Part shown: in pieces, positions 43,761-49,404 of the stretch
How positions within the stretch are numbered: the first letter of the stretch is position 1
How the letters are laid out: every line of letters begins with the position of its first letter
Origin: a virus
IMG/VR virus record: IMGVR_UViG_3300025127_000055
Span: 1-52,219 of that record
Direction: 5' to 3' (one strand)
Length of the DNA stretch: 52,219 nt
Position numbers and translations under genes: made by a program
Notes under the pieces: model-generated
Seen by the model: the letters and a program-made list of their open reading frames with translations, nothing else
Database searches by the model: none
What the model was told of the DNA's origin: nothing

Positions 43761-43833
43761 ATTGTTATACATTAATTATAAAGGAAGTTGAAATGAAATA
43801 GGAAAAAAGTAGACGATATTTTAATTGTCACAC
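43761..43833 (-). promoter_or_regulatory. Early promoter cassette, diverged copy
   Basis: Minus strand: half-site GTGTGAC with the stop TGA of the upstream gene, then GTCTACTTTTTTCC, TATAAT (43775-43780) and leader ATAACAAT (43761-43768). No clear stem. Clearly related to the other cassettes in its box and leader. Confidence 0.55.
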
Positions 43834-44121
43834 TGCTAACCCTTTTAACTTTAAAATCTCGTCATAATGAAGTTCAGCTGCTATAGTGCGGTAGATTCCA
43901 AAAATCTTGGCCATGTCCACACCTTCCCAATCTGTCCACTCTTCAACATATCCGAGCTGGCTCTCATCATATCCACCTGACTTCAAACTGGGGGCTGATA
44001 TAAACTCAAAGTTTGCATCAATAAAAAAATGCCTTCCAAACTCTTGAGACTCAAATGTGACACTTGGTAAAAACTTTCCGTTAGTCATATTTAAGTAGTC
44101 TTGAAAAAAGAATGTCCTCAT
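43828..44121 (-). CDS. 97-aa early hypothetical protein
   Basis: ATG overlaps the stop of the 48-aa gene (ATGA). Sequence MRTFFFQDYLNMTNGKFLPS, then RHFFIDANFEFISAPSLKSG and QLGYVEEWTDWEGVDMAKIF. Mixed alpha/beta, aromatic-rich. Ends GLAV with TGA inside the GTGTGAC half-site of the cassette. Function unknown. Confidence 0.65.
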   Translation of the reverse strand: MRTFFFQDYLNMTNGKFLPSVTFESQEFGRHFFIDANFEFISAPSLKSGGYDESQLGYVEEWTDWEGVDMAKIFGIYRTIAAELHYDEILKLKGLAV

Positions 44122-44264
44122 TTTGTTTCCTCGTATGAATGAAAGAGTGAATAATAGAGATCGTTTTGAAGTCCAAACTCAAATGAAACATTTGCTTCGA
44201 TCTCGTCAGTAGAGTTATAAATCTTTGAGATTAATTCATACTCTTTTGCTGTAAGTGTTCTCAT
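44118..44264 (-). CDS. 48-aa early protein
   Basis: ATG at 44262-44264 right behind the TAA of the 79-aa gene, with GAGGAGGG upstream; TGA overlaps the next ATG. MRTLTAKEYELISKIYNSTD, EIEANVSFEFGLQNDLYYSL. The TAKEYELISKIYN opening resembles helix starts in small phage ORFs. Clear coupling on both sides supports translation. Not recognised. Confidence 0.65.
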   Translation of the reverse strand: MRTLTAKEYELISKIYNSTDEIEANVSFEFGLQNDLYYSLFHSYEETK

Positions 44265-44504
44265 TTAGCCCTCCTCGCTGATAAAGGTATCTAATCTCTC
44301 AATGTCGAGCTCTGGGTTGAAAGTGAAATCTCTGAATGACTTGTAAGTATCAAAGAAATCAACTCCAGCTATATGATCTACTCCCCACTCTAAGATTTCT
44401 GTTACAAAATCTGCAAAGTCATCACAACAGCAAGCCATATTCTGAAAGTTGTCAACTTCGAGGATTCTGTTGATGATTCTGTCTGTTGGTGAAAGTTTGT
44501 TCAT
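44265..44504 (-). CDS. 79-aa early protein with CCC motif
   Basis: First gene after cassette A. Helical and acidic (NKLSPTDRIINRILEVDNFQ, NMACCCDDFADFVTEILEWG, VDHIAGVDFFDTYKSFRDF). Three adjacent Cys (25-27) are unusual and could bind metal or be redox-active. No clear Shine-Dalgarno in the short 5-prime leader. Function unknown. Confidence 0.65.
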   Translation of the reverse strand: MNKLSPTDRIINRILEVDNFQNMACCCDDFADFVTEILEWGVDHIAGVDFFDTYKSFRDFTFNPELDIERLDTFISEEG

Positions 44505-44515
44505 TTTGAAATTCG

Positions 44516-44587
44516 TTTGTTATACTATTATTATAATGGGTAGAGTATTAAAATCTACCCATGATGTGACAGTAATTAAACTGTCAT
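44516..44587 (-). promoter_or_regulatory. Early promoter cassette A
   Basis: Minus strand order: palindrome TGACAGT-n6-ACTGTCA (44567-44586), stem ATGGGTAG / CTACCCAT (44536-44543 with 44555-44562, loop 11), TATAAT (44530-44535), leader ATAACAAA (44516-44523). Stop TAA of the HicA-like gene lies inside the palindrome. Drives the 79-aa gene. Confidence 0.8.
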
Positions 44588-44767
44588 ACCGATTGATTTT
44601 TTGAGTTGTCTGTCAAGTACTTTTGAATAGTGTTTATTGTTTCTGGGGCTTTTTGGTGTGGTTACTAGAGCCCCTGTTACAATATGCTTAAAGACTAGAT
44701 GATTAGTTTCTCGAATTAAAATAAATCCGTTTCTCTTCATCTTCCTTTTAATTTCCCTCTGCTTCAT
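44576..44767 (-). CDS. HicA-like small RNA-binding protein
   Basis: 63 aa with the HicA/YcfA layout: basic start (MKQREIKRKMKRNGF), the strand with the family His (LIRETNHLVFKHIVTGALVT, His23), then a Pro/Lys turn (TPKSPRNNKHYSKVLDRQLK). In HicA toxins that His is catalytic for mRNA cleavage. This is known for the family, not shown here. The upstream 106-aa gene overlaps by 4 bp. No HicB-like antitoxin (ribbon-helix-helix or HicB fold) is visible downstream. The gene is bounded by 11-bp direct repeats (44580-44590, 44768-44778). Confidence 0.6.
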   Translation of the reverse strand: MKQREIKRKMKRNGFILIRETNHLVFKHIVTGALVTTPKSPRNNKHYSKVLDRQLKKSIGMTV

Positions 44768-45084
44768 ACTGTCATACCTGATACAAAGGGAACTGCTGAA
44801 CCATCTAGGTCATCTGATAAAAACCATGCCCAGTTTTTTTGATTAACTCTCATACTAGGTACAAACTCATTAAGTAAAGCATTGAGTCTAGACTTAGTTG
44901 TATTGGATTGCCAACCGCCATCAAATAGTGTAAGATCGTTTGTAGCTGTATCTACTGAAGCAATGTGATTTCCATGTAGGAATACTTCAACAACTTCTCT
45001 TGATACTCTGACCATAGTATTAGAACCAGCCCAGTTGCGTCTGTATCTGATTGCTGTGTTCATTTGCTGTTCGATCTTTCTCAT
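44764..45084 (-). CDS. 106-aa LHGN-type conserved hypothetical protein
   Basis: Segments NTAIRYRRNWAGSNTMVRVS, EVVEVFLHGNHIASVDTATN, DLTLFDGGWQSNTTKSRLNA belong to a small protein type recurrent in cyanophages and some plasmids (V-x-L-H-G-N-x-I-A ... GWQSxTTKSRLNAL). No function is known to me. First gene after cassette B and translationally coupled to the HicA-like gene (ATGA), so the two may act together. Ends SGMTV, like the HicA-like product, because both ends read through the same repeat. Confidence 0.7.
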   Translation of the reverse strand: MRKIEQQMNTAIRYRRNWAGSNTMVRVSREVVEVFLHGNHIASVDTATNDLTLFDGGWQSNTTKSRLNALLNEFVPSMRVNQKNWAWFLSDDLDGSAVPFVSGMTV

Positions 45085-45103
45085 AATAAAAAATGAATGA
45101 TTG

Positions 45104-45176
45104 TTTGTTATACTATTATTATAATGGGTAGGTTATTAAAATCTACCCATAGTGTGACAGTAATTTAACTGTCACA
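45104..45176 (-). promoter_or_regulatory. Early promoter cassette B
   Basis: Minus strand: perfect palindrome with 9-bp arms TGTGACAGT / ACTGTCACA (45153-45161 and 45168-45176), stem ATGGGTAG / CTACCCAT (45124-45131 with 45143-45150), TATAAT (45118-45123), leader ATAACAAA (45104-45111). Confidence 0.85.
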
Positions 45177-45177
45177 T

Positions 45178-45402
45178 TTACATCATTTTTTCAGCAACAA
45201 AAGCTCCCATAAGTGTTTGATAGATGTCATCACATATTTTTGTGAGTTCATCATCACTTGCTCCAATAGATGGGTGATAGTTAACAAAATCCTCTATTGG
45301 ATCTCCACCGAAAGTAACTTCTCTGATTGAAACATCAGCATTATCATCAATAAATGCTTCATGTAAAACTGTCTCATTTTGCCATGTGTTTTCAAAAATC
45401 AT
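45178..45402 (-). CDS. 74-aa early acidic protein
   Basis: AGGA 7 bp before the ATG. Acidic, with ADVSIREVTFGGDPIEDFVN, SDDELTKICDDIYQTLMGAF. No recognised domain. First gene after cassette C; ends 2 bp before cassette B. Confidence 0.65.
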   Translation of the reverse strand: MIFENTWQNETVLHEAFIDDNADVSIREVTFGGDPIEDFVNYHPSIGASDDELTKICDDIYQTLMGAFVAEKMM

Positions 45403-45412
45403 AGTAGAATCC

Positions 45413-45484
45413 TTTGCTTATATGGCTATTATAATCGGAAAATTGGAAAAAAAGACCGATCATTGTGACAGTAATTAAATTGGT
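45413..45484 (-). promoter_or_regulatory. Early promoter cassette C
   Basis: Minus strand: half-site ATTACTGTCAC, short stem ATCGG / CCGAT (45434-45438 with 45456-45460), TATAAT (45428-45433), AGCCATATAAGCAAA leader. Stem is weaker than in A and B. Confidence 0.7.
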
Positions 45485-45487
45485 TTA

Positions 45488-45745
45488 TTATCTCACTGCG
45501 AATACTGTTTTTAGGTTACGATCTTCTACATAGGCTTTTCCATAGTCTGTAGCCCACTCGATTGCACTTTTTTTAGCAACTTCAAAATCCATTGTATAAT
45601 GCTCGTGATAGCCAAGAGGGTGGTCGGGAACTATAACAGTATAGTCAAATTTATTTCTGGGGTGGTTTGGTTCTCTTCTAAGATTATCAAGTTGAATAAT
45701 CTTTAACTGCTTGAGTGACTCTTCTAAAATTTCAATAGTTGTCAT
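45488..45745 (-). CDS. 85-aa early hypothetical protein
   Basis: The open frame continues upstream to 45847, but the ATG at 45743-45745 has GGGAG before it and stands one base after the TAA of the previous gene. Sequence MTTIEILEESLKQLKIIQLD, then FDYTVIVPDHPLGYHEHYTM, VAKKSAIEWATDYGKAYVED. Ferredoxin-like alpha/beta order is possible. Not recognised. Confidence 0.65.
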   Translation of the reverse strand: MTTIEILEESLKQLKIIQLDNLRREPNHPRNKFDYTVIVPDHPLGYHEHYTMDFEVAKKSAIEWATDYGKAYVEDRNLKTVFAVR

Positions 45746-45746
45746 T

Positions 45747-45941
45747 TTAAACTCCCTTAACTGTATTGGATAAGTATGTTTCTTTAGCTGCACAAATATT
45801 ATCAAATAAATTATCGAATGTTTGAACATCAAAATCATCACTCTCATTAAGATAATTAATTATCTCATCTTGAGAACACATGATATTATATAAGTGGTTA
45901 TACTGACCTTGTGTAAGTTCAATACATAATCCTTTTTTCAT
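45747..45941 (-). CDS. 64-aa early hypothetical protein
   Basis: ATG overlaps the stop of the 51-aa gene (ATGA). Helical (LTQGQYNHLYNIMCSQDEII, FDVQTFDNLFDNICAAKETY). Ends TVKGV. Middle gene of a three-gene coupled set (51 aa - 64 aa - 85 aa) behind the 46105-46141 cassette. Confidence 0.65.
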   Translation of the reverse strand: MKKGLCIELTQGQYNHLYNIMCSQDEIINYLNESDDFDVQTFDNLFDNICAAKETYLSNTVKGV

Positions 45942-46093
45942 TGTGCTAAGTCCTCGAATCTTTGTTGTGCTAATACTTCTGCACTAAATTGTAACTCTTC
46001 ATCATTGAATCCTAATGGATTGTTGTTAGTTACCTCTTCTAATGCTTCCTCAAATAGTGTTTCAAGTAGCATTTCATTTTGTAAAGTTGACAT
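45938..46093 (-). CDS. 51-aa early acidic protein
   Basis: Start at 46091-46093; the longer frame from 46120 would begin within the promoter box of the cassette. MSTLQNEMLLETLFEEALEE, then NPLGFNDEELQFSAEVLAQQ, RFEDLAQ. Acidic helices. Not recognised. Confidence 0.6.
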   Translation of the reverse strand: MSTLQNEMLLETLFEEALEEVTNNNPLGFNDEELQFSAEVLAQQRFEDLAQ

Positions 46094-46104
46094 TTTGAAA
46101 TCCT

Positions 46105-46141
46105 TTTGTAATATGGCCATTCTAGTCTATCTGACTAGAAT
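46105..46141 (-). promoter_or_regulatory. Early promoter cassette, hairpin variant
   Basis: Minus strand: perfect 9-bp stem ATTCTAGTC / GACTAGAAT (46119-46127 with 46133-46141, loop 5), TAGAAT as -10 inside the right arm, GGCCATATTACAAAAGGA leader. The TAG stop of the 91-aa gene is inside the stem. Lacks the TGACAGT palindrome. Confidence 0.65.
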
Positions 46142-46402
46142 TGTGTCAGAGAATTGTGCCAGCTCTGTATCTGGCATATATTGTGCTGGCCTTCTGGTGT
46201 TGATAGTTACCTCATAGTTGTAATTATCAAGTCTATCAAATAGTTCATCAGCCATATCATTAACGTGAATTAATTTTCTATTAACTGTTTCAGTTACGAA
46301 AGTCAAAACTCTTAATCTGACATTCTTCTTAACGTCTCCTAGAAAATCCTTGACCTGATAATAGTCAACTGTCATTGCTCCGTCAGATGATTTGATTTGC
46401 AT
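46127..46402 (-). CDS. 91-aa early hypothetical protein
   Basis: First gene after cassette D, AGGA in a leader with a T-run. MQIKSSDGAMTVDYYQVKDF, VRLRVLTFVTETVNRKLIHV, ELFDRLDNYNYEVTINTRRP. Mixed alpha/beta, probably a small globular domain. Not recognised. Confidence 0.65.
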   Translation of the reverse strand: MQIKSSDGAMTVDYYQVKDFLGDVKKNVRLRVLTFVTETVNRKLIHVNDMADELFDRLDNYNYEVTINTRRPAQYMPDTELAQFSDTILVR

Positions 46403-46416
46403 AATAAAAAAATCCT

Positions 46417-46485
46417 TTTGTTATATGGCCATTATAATCGGTAGGTTATGAAAATCTACCGATTATGTGACACTAATTGAACTGG
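46417..46485 (-). promoter_or_regulatory. Early promoter cassette D
   Basis: Minus strand: half-site ATTAGTGTCACA, stem ATCGGTAG / CTACCGAT (46437-46444 with 46456-46463), TATAAT (46431-46436), GGCCATATAACAAAAGGA leader. Confidence 0.8.
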
Positions 46486-46486
46486 T

Positions 46487-46951
46487 TTATAGGTAGCCCG
46501 CTGTTTCCATTCCAGGCTCATCATAGAACCAACTGAATCCAACTTCGGGAAACATATCCCTTAATTTTTCGCATATCTCTATTGGAGGCCCCCACGCTGT
46601 GTTAAAATTGATTTCAATTTGCTCATCATCATAATCATCTACCTCTACACTTCCATTAATATCCCACTTAGTTCCCCAATTTGAAATGTTCCAATTATAC
46701 CATCTATCGTCATTTCTTCCACTCTTAGGAAATTCCATAGTTACGAATGACACTTCGCCATTTGGCTTTTTAAATTCTTTTCTTACTGGTAACTCCCCAT
46801 CTTCATTTGGTGTATTATTCCAATCTGGACTAGGGATAATCTTACCAAAGACAGTATCCTTAGATTCAAAAATTTCCTGTATTTTTTGAATATCTTGCTC
46901 GTTACCATTCTTTGCGTAAGCGGTAACTCTGTTTTGACACCAATTAGGCAT
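46487..46951 (-). CDS. YubB/DUF1281-like ferredoxin-fold protein
   Basis: 154 aa. The opening MPNWCQNRVTAYAKNG and the late segment INFNTAWGPPIEICEKLRDM, then FSWFYDEPGMETAGYL are the hallmark of the Api92/YubB (DUF1281) family, found in many phages and plasmids with a ferredoxin-like fold of unknown function. Between them is a WNISNWGTKWDINGSVE block. It is the longest protein of this block and stands alone between cassettes E and D. Confidence 0.8.
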   Translation of the reverse strand: MPNWCQNRVTAYAKNGNEQDIQKIQEIFESKDTVFGKIIPSPDWNNTPNEDGELPVRKEFKKPNGEVSFVTMEFPKSGRNDDRWYNWNISNWGTKWDINGSVEVDDYDDEQIEINFNTAWGPPIEICEKLRDMFPEVGFSWFYDEPGMETAGYL

Positions 46952-46971
46952 AGTTGAAAAATGAATGAATG

Positions 46972-47041
46972 TTTGTTATGTTTTAATTATAATCGGTAGG
47001 TTACGAAAATCTACCGATTGTGTGACAGTAATTTAACTGTC
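46972..47041 (-). promoter_or_regulatory. Early promoter cassette E
   Basis: Minus strand: palindrome GACAGT-n6-ACTGTC plus CAC (47022-47041), stem ATCGGTAG / CTACCGAT (46992-46999 with 47011-47018), TATAAT (46986-46991), leader ATAACAAA (46972-46979). Confidence 0.85.
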
Positions 47042-47236
47042 TTAAAATGGGTTGCTCCAGTTGTATGCCTGATAATCTGTAACTAGACCATCTTTGTTGA
47101 GACCATCAACATAATCATTAAATGCACATCTTTTGGCAATGCTATCTCCTCTGAAGTTTGGATTAGATTTTAGAAAGTCTGACCAATCCCATCTGAATTG
47201 CTCAACTGCTTGCTTTTTGGTCATTCTGTAGTTCAT
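47042..47236 (-). CDS. 64-aa early conserved protein (KQAVEQF type)
   Basis: Start at the ATG at 47234-47236 with AGGA 6 bp upstream; the longer frame from 47275 would run through the promoter. MTKKQAVEQFRWDWSDFLKS, then KRCAFNDYVDGLNKDGLVTD, YQAYNWSNPF. The end (N-x-Y-x-D-x-L-x-K-D-G-x-I-x-x-x-Q-x-x-x-W) is a widespread marine-phage and bacterial small-protein signature of unknown role. Confidence 0.75.
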   Translation of the reverse strand: MNYRMTKKQAVEQFRWDWSDFLKSNPNFRGDSIAKRCAFNDYVDGLNKDGLVTDYQAYNWSNPF

Positions 47237-47246
47237 AAGAATCCTG

Positions 47247-47317
47247 TTTGTTATATGGCTATTATAATTGAACAAGATGCTAATTCAATCAAAATTAGAC
47301 ACTAATCAAACTGTCAC
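47247..47317 (-). promoter_or_regulatory. Early promoter cassette F
   Basis: Minus strand: GTGACAGTTTGATTAGTGTC (47298-47317), stem ATTGAA / TTCAAT (47267-47272 with 47284-47289), TATAAT (47261-47266), AGCCATATAACAAACAGGA leader. The TGA of GTGACAG is the stop of the 71-aa gene. Confidence 0.75.
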
Positions 47318-47529
47318 ATTGAATCAACTAACTTATCAACACATTCGCTATAATGCTCGTCAGTTATATTTTTCTTCTTATGATAAAATCTTTCATCTAA
47401 CTCAAGATTATAAATTACTGATTTGGTTGCTTCTAATAAATCCTCATCATCAATATCAAAATCCGCAAGTTCGACCAACTCATAAATTTTTTCAAATAGA
47501 TAATTGAATTGAGTATCGTTAGTTCTCAT
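47314..47529 (-). CDS. 71-aa early acidic protein
   Basis: ATG overlaps the TAG/TAA region of the 86-aa gene. Helical and acidic (FNYLFEKIYELVELADFDID, DEDLLEATKSVIYNLELDER, YSECVDKLVDSM). Stop within cassette F. Not recognised. Confidence 0.65.
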   Translation of the reverse strand: MRTNDTQFNYLFEKIYELVELADFDIDDEDLLEATKSVIYNLELDERFYHKKKNITDEHYSECVDKLVDSM

Positions 47530-47789
47530 TAGTCTAAATCCCTCTCAGAATCAAATCTTCGATCTTTTTTAAAATCACATTTAATATAATCTTGAATCTC
47601 ATCAACAACTTCGCCAAAATGATCTTCCCAATAGTTTTGTGCTTCATCAATAAATTCTGCATCTGACATTTTTTCATAATATCTGTCAAGATCATCAGTT
47701 ACATACGAAACTAAATCTTTTGTTGACATATTATCAACATATCTCTCAACTAAAAAAGATTTGAGTTCATTAATTAGTGCTTTATCCAT
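47529..47789 (-). CDS. 86-aa early acidic protein
   Basis: Helical (MDKALINELKSFLVERYVDN, LVSYVTDDLDRYYEKMSDAE, FGEVVDEIQDYIKCDFKKDR), similar in layout to cyanophage proteins that open with KALIxxLKxFLVExYVDxMS. Coupled to both neighbours by stop-start overlaps. Function unknown. Confidence 0.65.
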   Translation of the reverse strand: MDKALINELKSFLVERYVDNMSTKDLVSYVTDDLDRYYEKMSDAEFIDEAQNYWEDHFGEVVDEIQDYIKCDFKKDRRFDSERDLD

Positions 47790-47962
47790 TAGACTTCTCC
47801 CTCTTCTGGAAACTGTGATAGATACGCATTAGCAAGATGAGACACGAAAAACCACGCACGTTGACCACTCACTCTATTTTCATCACAATAGTGTGATATG
47901 GTATCTTCAACTAATTCAGAGATTTCAACTGCTTGATCTCTCATTTCTTTGATGTCGTCCAT
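47789..47962 (-). CDS. 57-aa early protein
   Basis: Start at 47960-47962; the longer frame from 48007 runs into the promoter. MDDIKEMRDQAVEISELVED, then RVSGQRAWFFVSHLANAYLS. Helical, acidic front; last part amphipathic. Behind cassette G. Confidence 0.6.
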   Translation of the reverse strand: MDDIKEMRDQAVEISELVEDTISHYCDENRVSGQRAWFFVSHLANAYLSQFPEEGEV

Positions 47963-47972
47963 AATAAAAAAT

Positions 47973-48044
47973 CTGCTTACATTATTATAATAGTACCTAT
48001 CCGACACGAATAGGATTTTTATGTGACACTAATCAAACTGTCAC
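47973..48044 (-). promoter_or_regulatory. Early promoter cassette G
   Basis: Minus strand: GTGACAGT-n6-AGTGTCAC (48023-48044), short stem CCTAT / ATAGG (47996-48000 with 48010-48014), TATAAT (47984-47989), GTAAGCAGA leader. Stem sequence unlike other copies. Confidence 0.7.
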
Positions 48045-48045
48045 G

Positions 48046-48240
48046 TCAACCAAACTTTATCCATTTAATTGGATTACCATTAGTAGCCTTCCATAGGTAA
48101 ACTGCACCTATGGATTCAACTAAATTCTCTCCAGTTTTTTTTGCTTCATCAAAATCAGTAAAATTCCAATAATTTGCATCTTCTGAATAAAAATCAAAAG
48201 TGTCAGTTAAAATCCATTTTTTCATAGTTTTGGTAGCCAT
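48046..48240 (-). CDS. 64-aa early protein
   Basis: KKWILTDTFDFYSEDANYWN, then FTDFDEAKKTGENLVESIGA, VYLWKATNGNPIKWIKFG. Start at Met1 (48240) or Met6 (48225), neither with a good Shine-Dalgarno. The sequence directly before Met1, GGTATGATAGT, is one base from the 11-bp repeat around the HicA-like gene. The intergenic 48241-48314 holds a small CAGG/CCTG hairpin and a T-run, perhaps a weak terminator. Function unknown. Confidence 0.65.
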   Translation of the reverse strand: MATKTMKKWILTDTFDFYSEDANYWNFTDFDEAKKTGENLVESIGAVYLWKATNGNPIKWIKFG

Positions 48241-48314
48241 ACTATCATACCTAGAGTTAAAAACAAGGAGCTTACAGGCGATCCTGAGAGGAGCAAAAGT
48301 GTATCAGTGCTATA

Positions 48315-48521
48315 CTATTTGAGTTGAATGTCATAATCAATAGATTTGATGCACCAACCACTAGCTGTAGTGATCTCTTCGATCAAATCTTCCTCATCAT
48401 CAGCCTCCCAAACACCAAGTGCATCATCACGAAGTGCAATTTCATCATCAAATGTTAGTTGATACTCTTCTGATAAACTATCGTTGAGATCAAACTCAAT
48501 TTCTGTTACGTTAAATTTCAT
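48315..48521 (-). CDS. 68-aa early conserved acidic protein
   Basis: MKFNVTEIEFDLNDSLSEEY, then GVWEADDEEDLIEEITTASG, WCIKSIDYDIQLK. The W-x-A-D-D-E-x-D-L-I-E-E-I-T-x-x-x-G-W-C-I-x-S-I-D-Y pattern recurs in marine T4-like phages without known function. ATG overlaps the stop of the upstream gene. Confidence 0.75.
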   Translation of the reverse strand: MKFNVTEIEFDLNDSLSEEYQLTFDDEIALRDDALGVWEADDEEDLIEEITTASGWCIKSIDYDIQLK

Positions 48522-48706
48522 GATAAACTCTTGTTAAGTACTTTTACATTTCTTTTAAGTGTCTCATCATAGACACGAATTGATAGTTCTCCATCAGCAT
48601 CTACAAAACCATTTCGATCAAGTGCATTGCCAACTATCTTCCAAACTTGATGGACTTCTTCATCAGTTAGCATTGAACCGATACTGTAGTAGTGTGTTCT
48701 TTTCAT
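48518..48706 (-). CDS. 62-aa early protein
   Basis: Start at 48704-48706; the longer frame from 48751 covers the promoter region. MKRTHYYSIGSMLTDEEVHQ, VWKIVGNALDRNGFVDADGE, LSIRVYDETLKRNVKVLNKS. Not recognised. Behind the terminator-promoter at 48721-48790. Confidence 0.65.
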   Translation of the reverse strand: MKRTHYYSIGSMLTDEEVHQVWKIVGNALDRNGFVDADGELSIRVYDETLKRNVKVLNKSLS

Positions 48707-48720
48707 TGTGAATGAATTAC

Positions 48721-48790
48721 TTATGTGGCCATTGTAGTAATAAAAAAACAAGGAATCTACAAAAAGTAGACACCTTGTTAACTGTCACGA
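48721..48790 (-). promoter_or_regulatory. Early terminator-promoter cassette H
   Basis: Minus strand: half-site GTGACAGTTAAC, strong terminator hairpin (48742-48779), TACAAT as -10 (48731-48736), GGCCACATAAG leader. The right half of the palindrome seen in A and B is replaced by the terminator stem. Confidence 0.75.
48742..48779 (-). terminator. Rho-independent terminator
   Basis: Minus strand: AACAAGG-tGTCTAC, loop TTTTT, GTAGAt-tCCTTGTT, then a run of seven T. It ends the 65-aa gene transcript at 48797 and is the clearest classical terminator in the window. Confidence 0.85.
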
Positions 48791-49206: not shown

Positions 49207-49404
49207 AGTTGTTATAATAAAGGACGAGAGGAAACAAAACACGACCAACTGCTTAAGTTCTACTTAAAAGCGTTTTCCTCTGGGTATCCACTACCTTGAA
49301 AGTCTTATGTTGGTGGGTTTGTTTCCCCACCATTAATATAAACCATTTCCACGAATAACGCAAGTATGTGTGTGTAACCTAACAAACTGGCACACTCACT
49401 CATT
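49207..49404. other. Intergenic region with hairpin and diverged half-site
   Basis: 198 bp. Contains a 7-bp hairpin TGGTGGG / CCCACCA (49311-49317 with 49326-49332). A region around 49360-49400 reads GTGTGCCAGTTTGTTAGG on the minus strand, similar to the GTGACAGTTTGATTAG cassette half-site. TATTAT with an ATAACAAC leader stands at 49209-49219. Probably another diverged cassette. Confidence 0.45.

Follow-up and report, generated by a model that had tools for sequence, protein, structure and literature searches.

The window, i.e. the whole analysed stretch of 52,219 nucleotides (IMG/VR record IMGVR_UViG_3300025127_000055), is part of the genome of a T4-like cyanomyovirus. On its minus strand, eleven similar cassettes are distributed over 5.7 kb between small genes of the hyperplastic region (Table 1). 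A preliminary description had counted at least ten of these; all ten were found at the positions given for them, together with a weaker eleventh copy that had not been listed.

Table 1. Positions of the cassettes and associated features in the window; the gap is the distance in nt between palindrome and -10 box.
Feature	Position	Strand	Palindrome	Hairpin	-10 box	Predicted +1	Remarks
Cassette 1	43768-43831	-	43810-43831	no clear hairpin	TATAAT, 43775-43780	43768	gap 29
Cassette 2	44523-44587	-	44566-44587	~44536-44562	TATAAT, 44530-44535	44523	
Kyano_Gp96 gene	44764-45084	-					downstream of cassette 3
Cassette 3	45111-45175	-	45154-45175, perfect	45124-45150	TATAAT, 45118-45123	45111	
Cassette 4	45421-45486	-	45465-45486, distal half degenerate	~45431-45462	TATAAT, 45428-45433	45421	
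Cassette 5	46112-46177	-	46156-46177, ATGCCAGA-n6-GCTGGCAC	46119-46141	TAGAAT, 46119-46124	46112	hairpin takes in the -10 box; palindrome inside the end of the upstream gene
Cassette 6	46424-46488	-	46467-46488	~46434-46466, 11 bp	TATAAT, 46431-46436	46424	
Cassette 7	46979-47043	-	47022-47043	~46992-47019	TATAAT, 46986-46991	46979	
Cassette 8	47254-47317	-	47296-47317	weak	TATAAT, 47261-47266	47254	
Cassette 9	47977-48044	-	48023-48044	~47996-48014	TATAAT, 47984-47989	47977	gap 33
Cassette 10	48724-48788	-	48767-48788	~48747-48779, terminator-like stem plus T-run	TACAAT, 48731-48736	48724	right half of the palindrome contributes to the stem
Cassette 11	49328-49393	-	49372-49393, GTGCCAGTTTGTTAGGTTACAC		TATATT, 49335-49340	49328	not in the preliminary description
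Structured RNA	49228-49328	-					conserved, non-coding; closing helix GGGGAAACAAA/TTTGTTTCCTC from the predicted +1 of cassette 11

The constant core of the cassettes is a palindrome, TGTGmCAsT-N6-AsTGkCACA, located 30±1 nt ahead of TATAAT, with its centre near -53.5 and a span of about -43 to -64. The -10 box is followed by a predicted start at an A and then, directly before the ATG, by a short leader of 15-30 nt that is rich in A; in isolate genomes, ATG-ORF starts lie at a median of 15-32 nt past the predicted +1. Among the ten listed copies the gap between palindrome and -10 box ranges from 29 to 33 nt, and the TATAAT that had been ascribed to all of them is present in eight, the exceptions being cassettes 5 and 10. 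Copies thought to carry half palindromes turned out to have complete, albeit degenerate, ones, and the supposedly fixed leader is a tendency only (ATAACAAA, ATAAGCAA, ATTACAAA, GTAAGCAG). Palindromes with at most three mismatches occur five times in the window versus an expected 0.20, a number reached in none of 100 shuffles. By employing a two-block score (palindrome plus spaced -10) with a cut-off of at least 18, we found 176 matches in the window and seven isolate genomes, versus 2 in reversed sequences. Shuffles, fixed spacing and reversed-sequence controls thus rule out chance repeats as the origin of the cassettes. Standard sigma-70 and terminator scans missed most of them, and Rfam at gathering thresholds gave no match in the 38.0-52.2 kb region.

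The architecture is shared by relatives, as the same promoter was identified in all nine isolates tested, namely P-HM2, S-SSM5, Syn9, S-PM2, S-TIM4, P-SSM4, P-SSM2, P-TIM40 and S-CRM01. With strict cut-offs these had 4-19 cassettes each, and the reversed-sequence controls none, or one in P-TIM40. Cassettes are also found ahead of helicase, hsp20-region, cobS and peptidase genes, for which reason "early" may be too narrow a label. Syn9 and P-TIM40 are the phages in which Doron et al. 2016 (ISME J 10:1437, doi 10.1038/ismej.2015.210) reportedly described a novel regulatory element that controls early-gene transcription and is said to be frequent and conserved among T4-like cyanophages. Both phages carry palindrome cassettes, and the element is widespread in the T4-like cyanophages tested here. 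Going by this general description, the palindromic element is probably the same as theirs, and a core of operator and -10 has probably already been reported for cyanophages. What appears new here is the hairpin slot nested in the promoter, together with the hybrid cassettes and the structured RNA starting from a predicted +1.

Half-site variants were used to distinguish DNA from RNA symmetry in the palindrome. At position 4 the variants of the distal and proximal halves are independent (Fisher p=0.42), and at position 7 they are anti-complementary (OR 0.31), i.e. against pairing. As the halves do not covary like an RNA helix, an RNA hairpin is ruled out and the palindrome, judged from these variants, is a DNA operator. 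At IMG/VR loci picked on the palindrome alone, 54 exact palindromes are followed by TATAAT at a distance of 29-33 nt and 4 by one located elsewhere in the next 75 nt. Spacing statistics were taken from this set and from the isolate and window scans, since some of the loci behind a larger set of 443 non-redundant cassettes had been selected by palindrome or by a cassette at gap 30. Such constant spacing suggests an activator in contact with RNA polymerase. No -35 column appears in the cassette logo, and the GTTTAC-like -35 of T4-type promoters is missing while the -10 is present. TTGACA is matched at 5-6 of its 6 positions in about 10% of the spacers, which is four to five times as often as in shuffled ones, so some of the cassettes may be ordinary sigma-70 promoters to which an operator has been added. 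Because -35 elements are weak in marine cyanobacterial promoters, the missing -35 alone is no proof of activator dependence.

Taken as sequence evidence, these data make it probable that the cassettes are the promoters, composed of operator and spaced -10, of a cyanomyovirus-wide regulon that is factor-activated and whose members are swappable with their modules. A dimeric candidate DNA-binding factor would most likely bind the palindrome and recruit or position the host RNA polymerase at a sigma-70 type -10 (TATAAT), usually without a good -35, ahead of an A start. The bound factor would thereby act as an upstream activator, rather than a repressor, in place of the -35 contact, and the regulon would consist mostly of early, host-takeover genes.

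A variant, in which the phage makes use of a host transcription factor that binds the palindrome, is possible but somewhat doubtful. Early genes need to be read before phage proteins exist, which speaks for it, but the site resembles neither the known Pho box nor the known sites of NtcA and CRP, and searching for the palindrome with TATAAT at a gap of exactly 30 gave no match in any cyanobacterial genome among representatives of 84,980 species, a result by which a host origin of the promoter was rejected at that scope. A precedent does exist in phage promoters using host PhoB, as in S-PM2 (PMC10976474). It is unlikely that the palindrome is a stoperator-like repressor operator, by which a later-made phage protein would shut the early genes off. 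A symmetric operator recurring at many early-type promoters and a phage-specific regulon would suit this, but a centre near -53.5 at such a constant distance from the -10 is activator geometry; repressor sites usually overlap -35 to +20 and accept variable spacing, and the better conserved half of the palindrome is the promoter-proximal one.

Strong spacer hairpins were found in 194 of the 443 non-redundant cassettes (~44%), versus 38-58 with shuffled spacers, and spacer length is 30.4±0.8 with a hairpin and 30.2±0.7 without. The spacer hairpin is real but optional. In the window, the stem-loop once claimed for every copy occurs in most, but is absent from the copy listed at 43761 and weak in that at 47247. 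A T-run follows the hairpin in 37 of the 443 cassettes and in one of the ten listed copies (48721); in the other window stems the 3' arm abuts, overlaps or stops just short of the -10. Since T-runs are missing and a consensus scan yielded 0 terminators in the window, the idea that the stems are transcript ends is unindicated for most of them. Only spacer length appears to matter, leaving the spacer free to house a hairpin or even a whole intrinsic terminator of the upstream gene with the promoter unharmed. Such hairpins would end upstream transcripts, and with room for a terminator in the spacer, every small gene, or module of two or three genes, would carry its own insulated promoter.

The PeSL cassettes of Arbiol et al. 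2010 and Comeau et al. 2014 are reportedly units of a promoter and a stem-loop that lie between small hyperplastic genes and serve as crossover points. This work on T4-type phages is cited in PMC4503421. Encapsidated mini-circles formed from adjacent cassettes are a further trait ascribed to PeSL cassettes. Our cassettes resemble them as composite units in the same kind of location and with the same role in crossover, but the constant part here is an upstream palindromic operator whose distance does not vary, the stem, where there is one, lies inside the promoter spacer, and the GTTTAC-like -35 carried by T4/RB49-type early promoters (PMC1524935) is missing. The earlier notion of a distinct, PeSL-like form therefore stands as regards the promoter cassettes and the palindrome that sets them apart from T4, but not as regards a stem-promoter, which is not the defining architecture given that the stem is present in only ~44% of cassettes. 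Plain PeSL cassettes, with a sigma-70 early promoter, a terminator stem-loop and a palindrome that is incidental or itself a terminator, are quite improbable. Placement between small hyperplastic genes, cassette-mediated shuffling and hairpin enrichment all agree with them, as does the S-CRM01 record, where two such palindromes are annotated as Rho-independent terminators; against this, the palindrome halves lack the covariation of helix arms, their distance to the -10 is fixed, over half of the cassettes have no stem, most window stems have no T-run behind them and the RB49/T4-type -35 is absent.

Modules appear to have been exchanged exactly at the cassettes, as had been proposed. The close relative L332 lacks a multi-gene segment corresponding to the window genes at 47.24-45.18 kb, and its remaining cassette is a hybrid whose left part is that of cassette 8 and whose right part is that of the Kyano_Gp96 cassette, these being the two that bordered the missing segment. 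On sequence grounds, this is PeSL-style module shuffling. In L331, one module was moved and one gene replaced, with junctions at cassettes. Kyano_Gp96 genes kept their cassette in 58 out of 75 relatives (control 4), and their upstream neighbors belong to 34 families over 62 loci. Gene pairs were conserved across relatives in 10 of 37 cases with an intervening cassette versus 25 of 47 without (p=0.025; the observations are not independent). When confined to the two closest relatives, the junction test has too few cases for significance, and small indels also occur at junctions without cassettes. Near-identical cassettes occur inside one genome and would provide the short homologies at which modules get deleted, moved or swapped. 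The idea that the repeats persist chiefly for gene exchange, as recombination or mobile sequences with a secondary promoter role, fits the hybrid, the module moves and these near-identical copies but is very improbable, since across phages the cassettes have nothing in common beyond the operator, the spacing, the -10 and the start region, which argues for selection for transcription and not homology.

Cassette 11 is conserved in relatives ahead of the structured RNA. In diverse phages the closing helix of this RNA, whose sequence covaries, starts exactly 12 nt downstream of the first T in the -10 box, and its 5' end coincides with the predicted +1. The length of the RNA is put at 83-152 nt. 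Rfam (E<5) gave no match for the RNA at 49.15-49.42 kb. As for the putative factor, Kyano_Gp96, the gene most steadily found behind a cassette, was considered as a regulator candidate; its model has a pLDDT of 95 and no convincing PDB fold match (best Foldseek E 0.33, best Z 4.3). The MarR-type regulator of P-SSP7 was rejected, being a podovirus protein that binds downstream of the start, with no similar palindrome described for it in the available part of the source.

In the late promoters of P2 and 186 (Ogr/Delta/B), the -35 is likewise missing and the activator, a zinc-finger protein in the case of Ogr/Delta, has a palindromic site with its centre near -55. This is an analogy by geometry only, as the site sequence differs and the genes here are of early and not late type. 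T4 middle promoters (MotA box, AsiA) also use a phage-specific element in place of the -35 contact, but the MotA box is located near -30, versus a palindrome centre near -53.5 here. Both motA and asiA are missing from cyanomyoviruses, and how early transcription starts in these phages, which also lack alt and mod, was called unclear in 2010 (PMC2984593).

Lastly, we tentatively suggest that cyanomyoviruses may have swapped the -35-based early promoter of T4 for an operator-anchored one with a conserved putative activator, possibly virion-carried or host-derived, and that the freed spacer could have become a terminator slot for the upstream gene, the genes insulated, swappable units, and the cassette a means of also expressing a conserved structured RNA. 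The motif can be used as an annotation tool, correcting palindromes labelled as terminators, and the operator as a handle for capturing the regulator. How a variable gene pool can be rearranged without any gene losing its own switch is shown by the hybrid cassettes. With a conserved operator, fixed geometry and predicted starts, the question of early transcription in cyanomyoviruses, which are among the most abundant marine phages, becomes directly testable.

Genes for T4-type portal, sheath, terminase, protease and baseplate proteins are present on the contig, whose nearest isolates are the Synechococcus/Prochlorococcus myoviruses S-TIM4, P-RSM4, P-SSM3 and P-SSM4. Its cassettes lie in a minus-strand block of small genes flanked by dam/helicase (49.4-52.2 kb) on one side and by baseplate genes on the other, a position matching that of the block in S-SSM5 and P-TIM40. 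All ten cassettes claimed in the preliminary description are present, each with a palindrome followed 29-33 nt later by a -10 box; allowing up to three mismatches, five palindromes were observed in the window against 0.20 expected. The stem-loop ascribed to every copy held in part, with a clear spacer hairpin in eight of the ten, none at 43761 and a weak one at 47247. The palindromes at 46156-46177 and 44566-44587 run into the 3' end or stop codon of the gene upstream, and this may be why the distal half-site is the more degenerate one.

We searched IMG/VR with the exact palindrome as the sole criterion and tallied where TATAAT came next; the offsets were 29 (3), 30 (31), 31 (12), 32 (5) and 33 nt (3), and only four lay at any other offset up to 75 nt. 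The generic palindrome consensus is TGTGmCAsT-N6-AsTGkCACA. In the logo of non-redundant copies, +1 is a strong A or G, followed by T and an A-rich leader, and there is no -35 column; a subset of about 10% matches TTGACA at 5-6 of 6 positions. Each record (seven whole isolate genomes and parts of two more) contains 4-19 strict cassettes, while reversed-sequence controls of nine isolates gave none, except one in P-TIM40. ATG-ORFs start at a median of 15-32 nt downstream of +1, and cassettes also precede e.g. helicase, cobS and the peptidase adjoining gene 46. In the freshwater phage S-CRM01, five cassettes (127442, 128836, 134498, 140604 and 149102), several near tRNA genes, share a variant -10 and start region, TATGCTAGCTAAG or near.

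In function the window cassettes resemble the promoter-early stem-loop (PeSL) cassette, but they lack the T4-type -35 that is a PeSL feature, and the terminator role of their stems is only putative. Doron et al. 2016 reportedly described an early-gene element for Syn9 and P-TIM40, with which the palindromic element is quite probably identical. In S-PM2, where a study of 2015 reported few PeSL-like features, 12 cassettes were identified under the present definition.

If the palindrome acted as an RNA hairpin, variable positions of its two halves should change together. Even though the sample was partly selected for perfect palindromes, variants at position 4 were independent between halves (p=0.42) and pairing was avoided at position 7 (odds ratio 0.31), which argues against such a hairpin. 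The better-conserved promoter-proximal half (mean mismatches 0.32 vs 0.75 distally), together with the fixed spacing, instead points to a putative protein dimer that, sitting at about -43 to -64, would contact RNA polymerase. Two S-CRM01 palindromes (HQ615693, 125862-125891 and 154634-154661) are annotated in GenBank as Rho-independent terminators.

An eleventh cassette (49393-49328) lies upstream of a conserved structured RNA, 83-152 nt long, whose closing helix covaries and which carries the motifs ACTTTCAAGGT and GAACTTAAG; it has no match in Rfam. The helix arms covary across phages (GGGGAAAC/GTTTCCTC, GTCGAAAC/GTTTCGAC, GTTGAGAGA/TCTCTCAAC). In diverse phages the helix begins exactly 12 nt past the first T of the -10 box, i.e. 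at the predicted +1, as counted on the sequences from TATATT to the helix; an automated count gave 13 in most rows, having accepted a box one base upstream. This coincidence independently supports the interpretation of the cassette as a promoter.

Occurrences of the conserved structured RNA (L numbers are loci)
Source	Position	Strand	Upstream element
Window	49228-49328	minus	palindrome cassette
S-TIM4	41.6 kb		palindrome cassette
P-SSM4	43.2 kb		palindrome cassette
L332	2559-2660		palindrome cassette
L204, L298, L401, L417, L418, L422, L428			palindrome cassette

Of 443 non-redundant cassettes, 194 have a strong spacer hairpin; with shuffled spacers the number was 38-58. A T-run follows 37 of the strong hairpins, e.g. 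in P-SSM2. The 3' arm stops directly at the -10 box or 7-10 nt short of it, in the latter case leaving space for a T-run, and spacers are equally long whether or not they contain a hairpin. The most economical interpretation is a spacer constrained in length and free in sequence, which can thus accommodate terminators. Among the window stems, only 48747-48779 looks like a classical terminator. One sequence family common to relatives covers four window stems; in a ten-copy alignment 96% of its cells pair, vs 28-44% for slid controls. One compensatory G-C/C-G change is seen, covariation counts being too small to prove more.

Module exchange was traced in the closest relatives, L331 and L332, whose nucleotide identity to the window is 81-94%. 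L332 is without the genes of window 47.24-45.18 kb, and its sole remaining cassette is a composite, taking palindrome and spacer from window cassette 8, and -10 flank and leader from the cassette preceding the Gp96 gene. L331 carries the module of gene 46127-46402 at another place and a replacement for gene 45178-45402, with junctions at cassettes. Gp96 genes retain their cassette in 58 of 75 relatives, and their upstream neighbors belong to 34 families across 62 loci. Small insertions are also found at other places, so the cassettes are not the sole exchange points. The Kyanoviridae Gp96 family (PF23790; window 44764-45084, minus strand), which is behind a cassette in most relatives, gave a confident alpha/beta model, for which no convincing fold match was found in the PDB.

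The gap-30 form of the promoter was found in 13 genome stretches, none of them from a cyanobacterial source, and the repeated ones are phage DNA within bacterial assemblies. The 188-kb Nonlabens contig NZ_RMVE01000006.1 (L202, L211; filed as Nonlabens xiamenensis) resembles cyanophage DNA, being 98% identical to P-TIM40 across the 8 kb checked, and NHFO01000061/63 (L204, L206, L210; filed as a Flavobacteriales MAG) likewise resemble cyanophage DNA. Since the gap-30 promoter occurs in no cyanobacterial stretch and the repeated stretches are phage DNA, we infer that the cassettes constitute a phage-specific regulon.
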